Assembly (NCBI GenBank): GCA_034190085.1 | Contig: JAXHTS010000007.1 | Span: 62,001-126,000, forward strand | DNA from: Spirochaetota bacterium | GTDB lineage: Bacteria; Spirochaetota; UBA4802; JAFGDQ01 | Length of the DNA: 64,000 nt | Reading direction: 5' to 3' | Part shown: piece by piece, positions 12,861-17,874 of the stretch | Layout: each line of letters starts with the position of its first letter | Numbering within the stretch: position 1 is the stretch's first letter | Notes under the pieces: model-generated | Database searches by the model: none | The model's input: the letters and a program-made list of their open reading frames with translations, nothing else | What the model was told of the DNA's origin: nothing | Made by a program: the position numbers and the translations under genes

Positions 12861-15830
12861 ATGAAAAATACAAATAAATACTTACGGTGTTCTTTTTTAT
12901 CCATATTATTTTTATCTCTATTACTAATATTAAATTTAGCCTGCGGGGATGATGGGGAAAGTGTATCGTTTTATCCGCAACCCTGTGAAGAGTGCGAGGA
13001 GAGCGAAGATTGTGAGGATTGTGAAGAATGCGAGCAATGTGAAGAGTGTGAAGCGTGTGAAGTGTGTGAAGATTGTGAGGAGTGTGAGGAGTGTGAATGT
13101 GAAACCGAAGTTGCTGGAAACCCGACCAAGTTAAATGATGCCACATATTCTATTGTCACGGAATACAAAAACGCATTTAATAACGATGGCGATGGAATAG
13201 CTTTGATAAAGATTGATTTGGGGCCAGCAAGAAGGATCGTGTATAGAATCTATGATAGTAATTCCGGAATCTGGTCAGAGGGGGGGGAGTTTGGCACAAA
13301 TATTAATTCATTTGACATTGCCAGCAATGGCACTGATTTTATGGTTATATATAATCAAGGCAGTCGCTTATATGCCAGAGGATACAGCAGCAGCGGTTGG
13401 GGTGATAAAAATCTATTAAATACAAATGAGTATTGGGCATATAATATTAAAATCCATACAAACGGTATGGGATATTGTGCAGTATGGAGAGAATATGTGC
13501 AAGGATCTGCGGATTATAGACTTTTTTCAAATATATACGATGGGGTTTGGCTGGGATATGAGCAAATTTCAGATAGTGTTCCAGTTGGTAATTCAATCGA
13601 GATATCTACAAATGGCACAGGATATTGTGTGACATGGGAAGATAGCGATTCTGGATCTGATATCTTAGCAAACATCTATGAAGCCCCTGCCTGGGTAGGG
13701 GAAACTAAGATCGATGACACGAATACTGGGAATTATGTTGGTTACCCCTATATCGCTTCAAATGGAATTGGATACTGCATCACTTGGCAGCAGTATGATG
13801 GCTCTAGTTATTATGACATATACGCTAATATTTACAATGGCGCTTGGGAAGGCGCGACTGAGATTGATCTAGTCTCAGGATCAGAGGCTGATGATCCACA
13901 GATAGCATCAGATGGAAGCGGGTATTGTGTCGCATGGGAGCAATATGATGGATCCAATAACATATACGCTAACATATACAATGGTAGTTGGGGAGGCGCG
14001 ATTGAGATTGATCTAGTCTCAGGGGGGTATGCCTATAGACCCCTGATAGCATCAGATGGAAGCGGTTATTGTGTCACGTGGGGGCAATATGCGGTCTCGG
14101 AAGAGAACATCTATGCAAATATATACAATGGAGCTTGGTCAGGCGCTGCAGAAATAGATGAAATATCCGGATCAGATTCTGATATCTACTCTACGCAAAT
14201 AGCTTCAAATAATTCCGGATACTGTATATTATGGCAGCAGAATAGCTCTCCAGATGACAGGATGTATGCAAAAATCTATGATAGTGGAAGTTGGGGGACA
14301 TCGAATATTGTGGATGCGGGCATATATCCGGATTATAGCGATCCCTACTTGTATTCTAATAATTCAGGGTATCACATCAACTGGATTGAATCAAATATCA
14401 CTGGCAATACTGCTTATACAAATACTTATTCCTTAAGCGCTTGGGACGGAGGAATCGGGATTGGCAGTGGAGAGGAAGGGGAAGGCTCCTGCCGAACCTC
14501 GCATGTGCCAGTCGTTGCTACAAATAACTCGGGTAATATTTTAGCCCTATGGTCACAATTTAGTTTGGGGGATAATAATTTATATGCATCAGAAAACGAT
14601 GGGAATGGCTGGAAGGCGCCATTTGTAATTGCAGAAGATGTTGAATATTTTGATGTTGCCAGCAATGGCACTGATTTTATGATAGTATATTCCATGTATA
14701 ATGATCTCTACTCGGTCATTTATAATGGCGCTCTTGGAACAGAAGTGGAAATTGATTCAAGTGTATATGGGAAAAATAATGTCAGTATCCACACCAACGG
14801 GACGGGATATTGTGCAGTATGGAGCGAATGGACTGAATATTCGCCAGGATTATGGGATAATAGAGTTTTCTCGAATATTTACGATGGTGGTTGGCAGGGA
14901 GATGAGCAAATTTCAGAGAGCGATCCAGGGTATAATTTGATAAGGATATCTACAAATGGAACAGGATATTGCGTGATATGGGAAGACAACGATTCGAGTA
15001 CTGATATCTATGCAAACATCTATGAAGCCCTTGCCTGGGGGGGAGAAACAAAGATCGATAACTCGAATCCAGGAAATAATGTTAACGATCCTGAGATTGC
15101 CTCAAATGGGAGTGGATACTGTATCACATGGGAACAGTATGACGGTTCTAATTATTATGATGTCTATTATAATCAATATGATGGCGGCTGGGGAGTCTCC
15201 ACATTGATTCCAGATGATCCTGGACTTACTCTTCACTCTGTCTATAATCCAAAAATTGCTTCAAATAATGATGGATATTGTATCACCTGGTCTCATCAGG
15301 ATGATACTTATAACAGAAATATATATGCATATTCCTATAACGGATTAACCTGGGATCCCTTGCCAACAGAGATTGATGCTGATATTGAGGATGCAGAAAT
15401 CAATTATTATGCTTATTCACCTGAAATTTCGTCCGATGGCTCGGGATATTGTGTCGTATGGAGGCAATATGATGATTCCCCATTAACACGTATTTATGCA
15501 CGAATTTATGATGGGGGATGGAGCGCAGAAGCGACAAAATTAAATCCAGGCCTGGTATATGACGAAAGTCCGCAGGTTATTTCAAATGGGAACAGCTATC
15601 TTGTCTTCTGGCTCGGCTATCATAAGTTCAACAACAGCCTATTTGGCAGTTATTATAGCGGTGGTTCCTGGGGCGAAAAGCTGCTTCTGGAGACAAATGA
15701 TGGGGATATACATTACAATAAACTAATAACCGAGTCCAACAATGGATTGGACTATGTTGCAGTGTGGTTTCAAGAGGAGGATGATGATCCATTGGTATAC
15801 AATATTTGGGGCAACATCATCACTCCATAG
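12861..15830 (+). CDS. Giant repeat lipoprotein with Cys-Glu ladder
   Basis: A surface or periplasmic lipoprotein of 989 residues. The lipobox LNLAC puts the lipidated Cys at residue 28. Residues 42-80 form a ladder in which nearly every third residue is Cys and most others are Glu or Asp; 13 Cys are present at 42, 45, 51-78 in steps of three, and 80, and residue 48 is Ser. The rest consists of about 15 repeats of 50-60 residues marked by G-Y-C-x-x-W and followed by IYANIY-like strands, probably beta-propeller blades. The second half repeats the first with an offset of 446 residues and is nearly identical in places at DNA level. No enzyme motif is visible. The ladder may bind metal or cross-link by disulfides, but that is inference. 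I do not recognise a named family. Confidence 0.85.
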   Translation: MKNTNKYLRCSFLSILFLSLLLILNLACGDDGESVSFYPQPCEECEESEDCEDCEECEQCEECEACEVCEDCEECEECECETEVAGNPTKLNDATYSIVTEYKNAFNNDGDGIALIKIDLGPARRIVYRIYDSNSGIWSEGGEFGTNINSFDIASNGTDFMVIYNQGSRLYARGYSSSGWGDKNLLNTNEYWAYNIKIHTNGMGYCAVWREYVQGSADYRLFSNIYDGVWLGYEQISDSVPVGNSIEISTNGTGYCVTWEDSDSGSDILANIYEAPAWVGETKIDDTNTGNYVGYPYIASNGIGYCITWQQYDGSSYYDIYANIYNGAWEGATEIDLVSGSEADDPQIASDGSGYCVAWEQYDGSNNIYANIYNGSWGGAIEIDLVSGGYAYRPLIASDGSGYCVTWGQYAVSEENIYANIYNGAWSGAAEIDEISGSDSDIYSTQIASNNSGYCILWQQNSSPDDRMYAKIYDSGSWGTSNIVDAGIYPDYSDPYLYSNNSGYHINWIESNITGNTAYTNTYSLSAWDGGIGIGSGEEGEGSCRTSHVPVVATNNSGNILALWSQFSLGDNNLYASENDGNGWKAPFVIAEDVEYFDVASNGTDFMIVYSMYNDLYSVIYNGALGTEVEIDSSVYGKNNVSIHTNGTGYCAVWSEWTEYSPGLWDNRVFSNIYDGGWQGDEQISESDPGYNLIRISTNGTGYCVIWEDNDSSTDIYANIYEALAWGGETKIDNSNPGNNVNDPEIASNGSGYCITWEQYDGSNYYDVYYNQYDGGWGVSTLIPDDPGLTLHSVYNPKIASNNDGYCITWSHQDDTYNRNIYAYSYNGLTWDPLPTEIDADIEDAEINYYAYSPEISSDGSGYCVVWRQYDDSPLTRIYARIYDGGWSAEATKLNPGLVYDESPQVISNGNSYLVFWLGYHKFNNSLFGSYYSGGSWGEKLLLETNDGDIHYNKLITESNNGLDYVAVWFQEEDDDPLVYNIWGNIITP
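12984..13100 (+). repeat. Coding 9-bp-period Cys-rich repeat
   Basis: DNA encoding residues 42-80 of the lipoprotein. It is built of 9-bp units of the form TGTGARGAN, giving Cys-Glu-x triplets. The regular period and purine bias suggest growth by replication slippage. The same stretch is open on the other strand, but that reading has no start signals. Confidence 0.8.
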
Positions 15831-15990: not shown

Positions 15991-17874
15991 TTATAGCGGA
16001 TTTGCTTCCAGTCTCCTTTTCTCCTCTGCCGAATAACCTAGAGCCATCCAGTCCAATGCGCCATTCGGTTTATGGCAGGCATTGCAGGAGAAGGCGCCAT
16101 CCTTTCTAATAGCGTGGCTTATCTCAAGATGGGCATTCTTGGGTATCCATCTTGGCTCTACTCTATTCATATTTTTAACATCCTTGTATGATGATGTATT
16201 CCAGCTATCAACATCCATAAAGGACATGAATTTATCCATCATATAGACCTTAAACATCAAACCATACATCCGCTTCATCATGCTCTTCTCCATCTCCTTT
16301 GCTGCCGCAAGATCAGGATTGCCGGTTGTGTAATATGTTGGGAAATTGTAGGGTATAAACATTCCTCCAAAGGGCCCCATATTCTGCAGATCAATATGCT
16401 GCCTTCCGTTAAATAATTTCATAGCGTAGATTTTGGATGGCCTTCCCTCTTTTGCAATAGGTCTCATGGTCTTTTCATACCACGAATCATAGTCAAAATC
16501 CTTGAATTCCGGCCAGATGTGTTCCGGGGTATAAAATTTGTACAGATTCTTTCCGTTTGGATTGTCCCCGATTGGATTGCCGAGAAATGTCGCATCGCCA
16601 TTCCACCAAGAATAGACAATGCCCTTCCCGGGCCTGCTCTCCTTCTTGATATCCTTGTATATGTATATGCCGGGATGTTCTTCGTAAACGACCTGGCTGA
16701 AATCCCTCATGGTTGCGTTGTCCGGATGCAGGGAGGGGATATGGCATGTCACACAGGCAATCCTTTTAATGTGAGTGTTCAAATATTCTGCATGCTTTAC
16801 ATCGCTATGCGGTTTGGATGAATGGCATTTTTCACAGGATACTTCTACATCAGGAAGGTCATTTGCCATCATGGTTGTGGTATGCGTGCCCTTGGCTATC
16901 AGGTGTCCCTCCGTTGTATGACATTCAATGCACGACATCCCGGCCCTGGCATGCACATCCCATGAGGGTGAATAGGGTGTGCCCCTCTTTGAACCAGGAT
17001 GAAGAACCCTGGGACGCTCATATCCAAGATTCAGGAAACTCTGCATATATGAGGGATCCTTTTTGTCTATATAAATATCCCCGCCCATATTATGCTGATG
17101 ACAGCGAAGGCATGCCTGAGCTGTGGGGGACCCAACCGACATGGCGGCCTTCATGGAGCGGTCCTGATCCCATCTCCTGAGCCCATTGTCATCCTCAACA
17201 ACCTGCTTTTTATTCATATCATAGGCCACAGAGTGACAGATGAGGCAATCTATGGCATCCTTCTCTTTATCGAGAGTTCTATAAAGGGGCATCATCTCTC
17301 CAAGAGGCGCCTGATATTGACTGCCGATGTGACATTGCCCGCAACCCTCTGAAAGCGTTTTCCCCTCTTTGGTTGTAATCAATTCCGCCCAGGCAGTCAT
17401 TGCAAAGGACCCCGGTTTTGGGCAGGGTCTGTTTATTTTACCCATTGGGAAATTGTCGGCTAACTTGCCGTTAAAGCCATATACGTTGGGATGTCTCGTT
17501 GTAAAAAAGCGATAATGCGCTGAGCTGGTCAGGTTTTCCATTAAATCTTCCTTCCTCTCCTTGCCTGTATGAGCATCCACTACCTTGATCTCCCTATGGC
17601 ACCTCAGGCATGTTTCTGGTCCTTCATATTCAAGGATTCCTTCAGCCTCGAATATTTCTATGTGTTTTAGTTCTTCTGAGTACTCCTTGCTTATTTTTTT
17701 TGAAATGGCAGAGAACTCCTCTGGAGTAATCCTATCAACAGTAAATACAATCTCTCCTGGTCGGCTATCTGCAGGCATCATTATATTTATCATATGAGAC
17801 CATGCCCGATAACCTATGAAAAAAACGAGAAGTAAAAGTCCTAAAAGCATAAGTAATAATTGTCTTTTTTCCAT
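15991..17874 (-). CDS. Membrane-anchored octaheme cytochrome c
   Basis: A 627-residue electron-transfer protein. An uncleaved N-terminal helix (about residues 5-22) anchors it, with the rest exported. Eight CxxCH heme sites are visible, with first cysteines near residues 89, 178, 210, 255, 315, 347, 374 and 597; the last is more than 200 residues from the seventh. Many additional His residues could act as distal ligands. Length and heme count recall the octaheme tetrathionate reductase and hydroxylamine oxidoreductase groups. The spacing does not let me choose, and it may be a new type. The start has a very strong GGAGGAGGG site. It lies 79 bp behind a MarR gene on the same strand and ends in a large hairpin. 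Role in respiration of a sulfur or nitrogen compound is inference. Confidence 0.9.
   Translation of the reverse strand: MEKRQLLLMLLGLLLLVFFIGYRAWSHMINIMMPADSRPGEIVFTVDRITPEEFSAISKKISKEYSEELKHIEIFEAEGILEYEGPETCLRCHREIKVVDAHTGKERKEDLMENLTSSAHYRFFTTRHPNVYGFNGKLADNFPMGKINRPCPKPGSFAMTAWAELITTKEGKTLSEGCGQCHIGSQYQAPLGEMMPLYRTLDKEKDAIDCLICHSVAYDMNKKQVVEDDNGLRRWDQDRSMKAAMSVGSPTAQACLRCHQHNMGGDIYIDKKDPSYMQSFLNLGYERPRVLHPGSKRGTPYSPSWDVHARAGMSCIECHTTEGHLIAKGTHTTTMMANDLPDVEVSCEKCHSSKPHSDVKHAEYLNTHIKRIACVTCHIPSLHPDNATMRDFSQVVYEEHPGIYIYKDIKKESRPGKGIVYSWWNGDATFLGNPIGDNPNGKNLYKFYTPEHIWPEFKDFDYDSWYEKTMRPIAKEGRPSKIYAMKLFNGRQHIDLQNMGPFGGMFIPYNFPTYYTTGNPDLAAAKEMEKSMMKRMYGLMFKVYMMDKFMSFMDVDSWNTSSYKDVKNMNRVEPRWIPKNAHLEISHAIRKDGAFSCNACHKPNGALDWMALGYSAEEKRRLEANPL

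Follow-up and report, generated by a model that had tools for sequence, protein, structure and literature searches.

What is the role of cysteines that recur at almost every third residue in the short segment between the membrane anchor of a bacterial lipoprotein and its large domain? The question is raised by a 989-aa probable lipoprotein encoded by the ORF at 12861-15830 (+) of the window, the 64,000-nucleotide stretch of a Spirochaetota contig that we analyzed (Table 1). Translation confirmed the 13 cysteines reported in the initial annotation (residues 42, 45, 51, 54, 57, 60, 63, 66, 69, 72, 75, 78, and 80; hereafter, the ladder), separated mostly by Glu or Asp, with codons running from 12984 (C42) to 13100 (C80). 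Ten of them, C51-C78, form an unbroken C-x-x run; the ladder is interrupted once, by Ser at 48, and its last step spans two residues. Residues 42-81 comprise 13 Cys, 20 Glu, 3 Asp, and one each of Ala, Gln, Ser, and Val, that is, 23 of the 27 non-Cys residues are Glu or Asp. Upstream of the ladder, we read a basic n-region, a hydrophobic core, and A27-C28, with an atypical Asn at -3 that makes the L-N-L-A-C28 box non-canonical; the signal peptides of homologues are alike and likewise end at a Cys. These observations support the original description: a probable lipid anchor is joined to a long repeat domain by a short segment that is acidic and dense in thiols. They also agree with its statement that the ladder is unlike simple CxxC zinc fingers, given that Pfam had no match in the segment and that His is absent from residues 42-81.

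Table 1. Features of the ladder lipoprotein gene (positions in the window)
Feature	Position	Strand	Basis
Signal peptide of the probable lipoprotein, residues 1-27, lipobox LNLA-C	12861..12941	+	Translation; similar signal peptides in homologues
Predicted lipid-modified Cys28	12942..12944	+	Inferred from place after lipobox
Cys-x-x ladder, 13 Cys, residues 42-80, acidic; diverged 9-bp repeat	12984..13100	+	Translation, repeat finding, selection test
First beta-propeller-like half, residues 84-540	13110..14480	+	45% identity to second half; AlphaFold2; Foldseek
Second beta-propeller-like half, residues 541-989, tandem duplicate of first	14481..15827	+	Alignment; fold inferred from first half

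Beyond the ladder, the protein consists of two tandemly duplicated halves, each of ~450 residues and 45% identical in an alignment. AlphaFold2 predicted the first half to be all-beta (pTM 0.82, mean pLDDT 77.5), and in Foldseek, propeller-containing proteins led the 705 PDB matches at E ≤ 0.001. As modeled, the head would be a beta-propeller, a toroid of four-stranded blades, with TM-scores of 0.2-0.5 that do not fix its exact family or blade number. Across the whole protein, no Pfam family scored above cut-off and no NCBIfam family matched; the sole Pfam listing, a sub-threshold GH85_C, lies elsewhere in the protein than the ladder. A PDB sequence search with the protein yielded chance-level matches alone (E above 0.1). 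In some homologues, Ala takes the place of the Cys in the 'GYC' repeats, suggesting that the cysteines of this later region are probably just part of the protein core.

Because one open reading frame of 989 aa takes in both the ladder and a domain that has homologues, the ladder is not the frameshift artefact that had been considered at the outset. Its DNA pattern occurs at a single site within its own genome, where the reversed control pattern had 0 matches, and a chance origin of the ladder is ruled out. Tandem Repeats Finder detected a period of 9 at 12984-13097 (12.7 copies, 77% match), so the 9-bp period proposed initially holds, whereas the proposal of fresh slippage growth is argued against by the divergence of the units. 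We then looked for signs of selection by setting each of the 12 full units against the consensus. Cys is retained in 11 of the 12, and the Cys and Glu codons together carry eight silent changes and one replacement (Ser at 48), versus two silent and six replacement changes in the third codon (Fisher p = 0.015). In a neutral simulation, one replacement or fewer in the Cys and Glu codons was obtained with p = 0.0008-0.008 by a conservative minimum-spanning-tree count, and with a lower p by a star count of changes. That the Cys and Glu codons vary almost exclusively at silent sites while the third codon drifts suggests selection on the ladder thiols; this modest constraint signal is suggestive rather than strong, since the units of an array duplicate one another and are not independent.

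A search of relatives gave matches in 7 of 39 genomes, its own genome included. Those homologues for which we read and tabulated the N terminus are probable lipoproteins, and their tethers are Cys-free and mostly rich in Gly, Ser, and Pro. No other in-frame acidic ladder was detected in 46 genomes of the order or in 393 of the phylum; the remaining ladder-pattern matches in the phylum lay out of frame or within short frames. Unrestricted Cxx patterns across the phylum hit mostly simple codon repeats, and reversed controls matched equally in several genomes. The order search listed 0 other genomes of the same genus. Conservation of the ladder is thus not supported: relatives in the same family and order have Cys-free tethers, and homologues without the ladder were, at the distance covered, among the findings that the initial annotation said would count against it. 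On these sequences, the ladder is a variant of the tether peculiar to one lineage and sampled from a single species. In a same-family relative, we noted a run of several probable lipoprotein genes (G001:C31:1642-6573; L016, L019, L023, and L026), at least two of them with related propeller repeats. Elsewhere in the phylum, a 395-aa frame (L187; G054:C30:41894-41986) has a long CSS repeat and then CGGGD at its end, an in-frame tail with Cys at every third residue that is C-terminal and not acidic.

Ladders were also present in viral contigs. We observed a lipobox, a short linker, and a ladder in three unrelated lipoproteins, L224/L227 (CDDCEVCEVCEVCEVCEVC), L259 (CPTCDVCEVCEVCEVCEVCEVC), and L354 (CETCPECPTCPACPVCEVCPTC), for which Pfam gave no family above cut-off; L259 and L354 had no relatives in annotated phages. 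Since the filler differs between the ladder lipoproteins, their shared feature is the Cys spacing, not acidity. Since they are unrelated, the layout probably evolved on more than one occasion, a view drawn from three cases, which are few, among the matches listed. From 84,980 genomes, one per species, most of the matches listed are apparently other repeats read in the wrong frame or on the opposite strand, and none of those listed passed a lipobox filter. This filter is strict, in that the LNLAC box of the window itself would fail it, so other ladder lipoproteins may be overlooked. The literature searched held nothing direct on Cys repeats in lipoproteins. A broad generalization, to which we give only a small chance, is that Cys-x-x ladder tethers constitute a recurrent, independently evolved, membrane-proximal metal-thiolate or redox stalk of bacterial and viral lipoproteins, cargo-independent and undescribed as such. 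Separately, six ORFs of 329-448 aa (L056, L073, L112, L115, L120, and L133; the first three named Streptomyces) share a recurrent Cys/Asp-rich terminus, CDCCDGCDCC, after a hydrophobic stretch, which is unrelated to the ladder.

We consider the ladder to be an unusual variant of the lipoprotein tether, probably functional at the thiol level. More specifically, we tentatively propose a thiol-dense acidic tether with a metal-binding or redox/thiol-buffering function, a proposal that we place somewhat short of an even chance. The N-terminal tether of this probable lipoprotein bears two tandem beta-propeller-like halves as cargo, and in this lineage the place of the usual flexible Gly/Ser/Pro spacer is taken by an acidic stretch with thiols at nearly every third residue. 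Mostly reduced in the envelope, the thiols might act together with the carboxylates as a multivalent soft-metal ligand (Zn, Cu(I), Cd, or Fe) or as a membrane-held thiol buffer, while charge may hold the stalk extended and the propellers clear of the bilayer. Cd, Pb, Ni, and Zn are reported to be bound by the thiolates of small CXnC peptides, with additional stability from histidyl or aspartyl side chains (PMC8028610). The proposal is favored by the modest constraint on the Cys and Glu codons, by the Cys-free tethers of homologues, and by the position of the three viral-contig ladders between a lipobox and differing cargo. Against it, we recognized no metal-handling gene beside the ladder gene, no ladder-bearing relative was found to show conservation, and cysteines could be tolerated, unused, in a hydrophilic spacer.

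The last objection leads to a second reading, in which the ladder is a plain hydrophilic, low-complexity spacer that grew by 9-bp duplication and whose cysteines have no role of their own. The 9-bp array fits this reading, as do the location of the ladder in the exact place of the homologues' Gly/Ser/Pro tethers and its occurrence in one genome only among 393 of the phylum. However, Cys was kept in all but one of the full units against drifting silent sites and third codons, unrelated lipoproteins show the same thiol spacing, and a useless run of free thiols would be reactive and costly. We regard a plain spacer as somewhat unlikely.

The redox setting of the genome bears on a third reading, the disulfide rod suggested in the initial annotation, in which CxxC pairs would close small loops or neighboring molecules would be cross-linked into a surface layer. 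A C-x-x-C spacing allows local disulfides, and spontaneous oxidation is possible; ladders are also found in large viral-contig proteins and, in L336, beside a predicted membrane segment. However, neither DsbB nor VKOR had a match in the genome, a 96%-complete draft, and a DsbD-type thiol-reductase protein is present. Two DsbA-family proteins were found, of the HCCA-isomerase-like and FrnE-like types; the former lacks a signal peptide, and neither is clearly exported. The ladder Cys count is odd as well. The lack of DsbB and VKOR together with the DsbD-type reductase favors ladder thiols that would be reduced in the envelope rather than enzymatically stapled, and hence a metal-thiolate or thiol-buffer tether. 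The enzymatically stapled rod is weakened accordingly, and we judge a disulfide rod of any kind improbable. The FrnE/DsbA-family ORF (L182, segment starting at 1528; G000:C40:49602-50171) contains one in-frame TGA directly before P-F-C, at the position of the relatives' first active-site Cys, which likely reflects selenocysteine (U-P-F-C) or a sequencing error. As to the viral contigs, the large proteins (L241:2714-3037, L271:12126-12173, and L280:5250-5297; frames of 820-972 aa) have long C-terminal C-x-x arrays, e.g., CDTCQSC and CENCEECDDCDYC, and the 284-aa frame of L336 contains CPVCEDCQDCPSCPVC, a Cys ladder just before the likely membrane segment that mirrors the anchor-proximal position of the ladder in the window.

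An electron-transfer strand, in which the ladder would hold Fe-S clusters or form a thiol relay, appears very unlikely. A multiheme c-type cytochrome that it might serve adjoins at 15991-17874, but its gene is convergent and on the other strand, and so shares no operon with the ladder gene. Furthermore, no Pfam profile for ferredoxins, other Fe-S families, or CXXC zinc fingers matched the ladder protein, and the tethers of homologues are devoid of Cys. An azole- or bacteriocin-type precursor, its cysteines converted to thiazoles, can be dismissed as having a negligible chance: the C-x-x periodicity and the 13 Cys are as in the Cys-Xaa-Xaa heterocycloanthracin precursor of Haft 2009 (PMC2674419), but here the repeat follows a signal peptide near the start of a protein that is 989 aa long and has a large C-terminal domain, and the YcaO family (PF02624) had 0 matches in the genome of the ladder protein and was matched in five control genomes.

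If its thiols are functional, the thiol-dense acidic tether would be a minimal, regular, membrane-fixed stalk with metal or redox activity, testable as a synthetic peptide, and recurrence in unrelated lipoproteins would turn the chemistry of tethers, usually taken as filler, into an annotatable trait. If they are not, the ladder usefully warns that a conspicuous low-complexity segment may be confined to a single species.

Comparison with known Cys-rich systems sets the ladder apart. Heterocycloanthracin-type precursors (TIGR03601) are short (the type case has 88 aa), carry their repeat at the C terminus, and occur in genomes that encode maturation enzymes (PMC2674419); the ladder protein has in common with them the tripeptide Cys repeat, the number of cysteines, and low complexity, and shares none of those three properties. 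Metallothioneins also use dense Cys, for metal-thiolate clusters, a comparison of working principle only; unlike them, the ladder has a strict C-x-x period and Glu/Asp filler, is probably membrane-anchored, and is part of a large protein, which matched no described metallothionein family in Pfam or NCBIfam. CXXCH multiheme c-type cytochromes resemble it in C-x-x-C spacing and in its predicted export; we rejected this identity, as no His follows the ladder Cys pairs and there is thus no heme attachment motif. Closer in position are the Gly/Ser-rich tethers of the homologues in G001, G031, and G034, which likewise connect the predicted lipidated Cys to the propeller repeats and are hydrophilic and of low complexity; they have no Cys and few acidic residues, whereas the ladder protein has 13 Cys and 23 Glu/Asp in 40 residues. 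Closest in layout are the uncharacterized viral-contig lipoproteins, whose ladders consist of 7-8 Cys in CEV or CPx units ahead of unrelated cargo, and which share with the ladder protein the same succession of putative lipobox, short linker, C-x-x ladder, and cargo.
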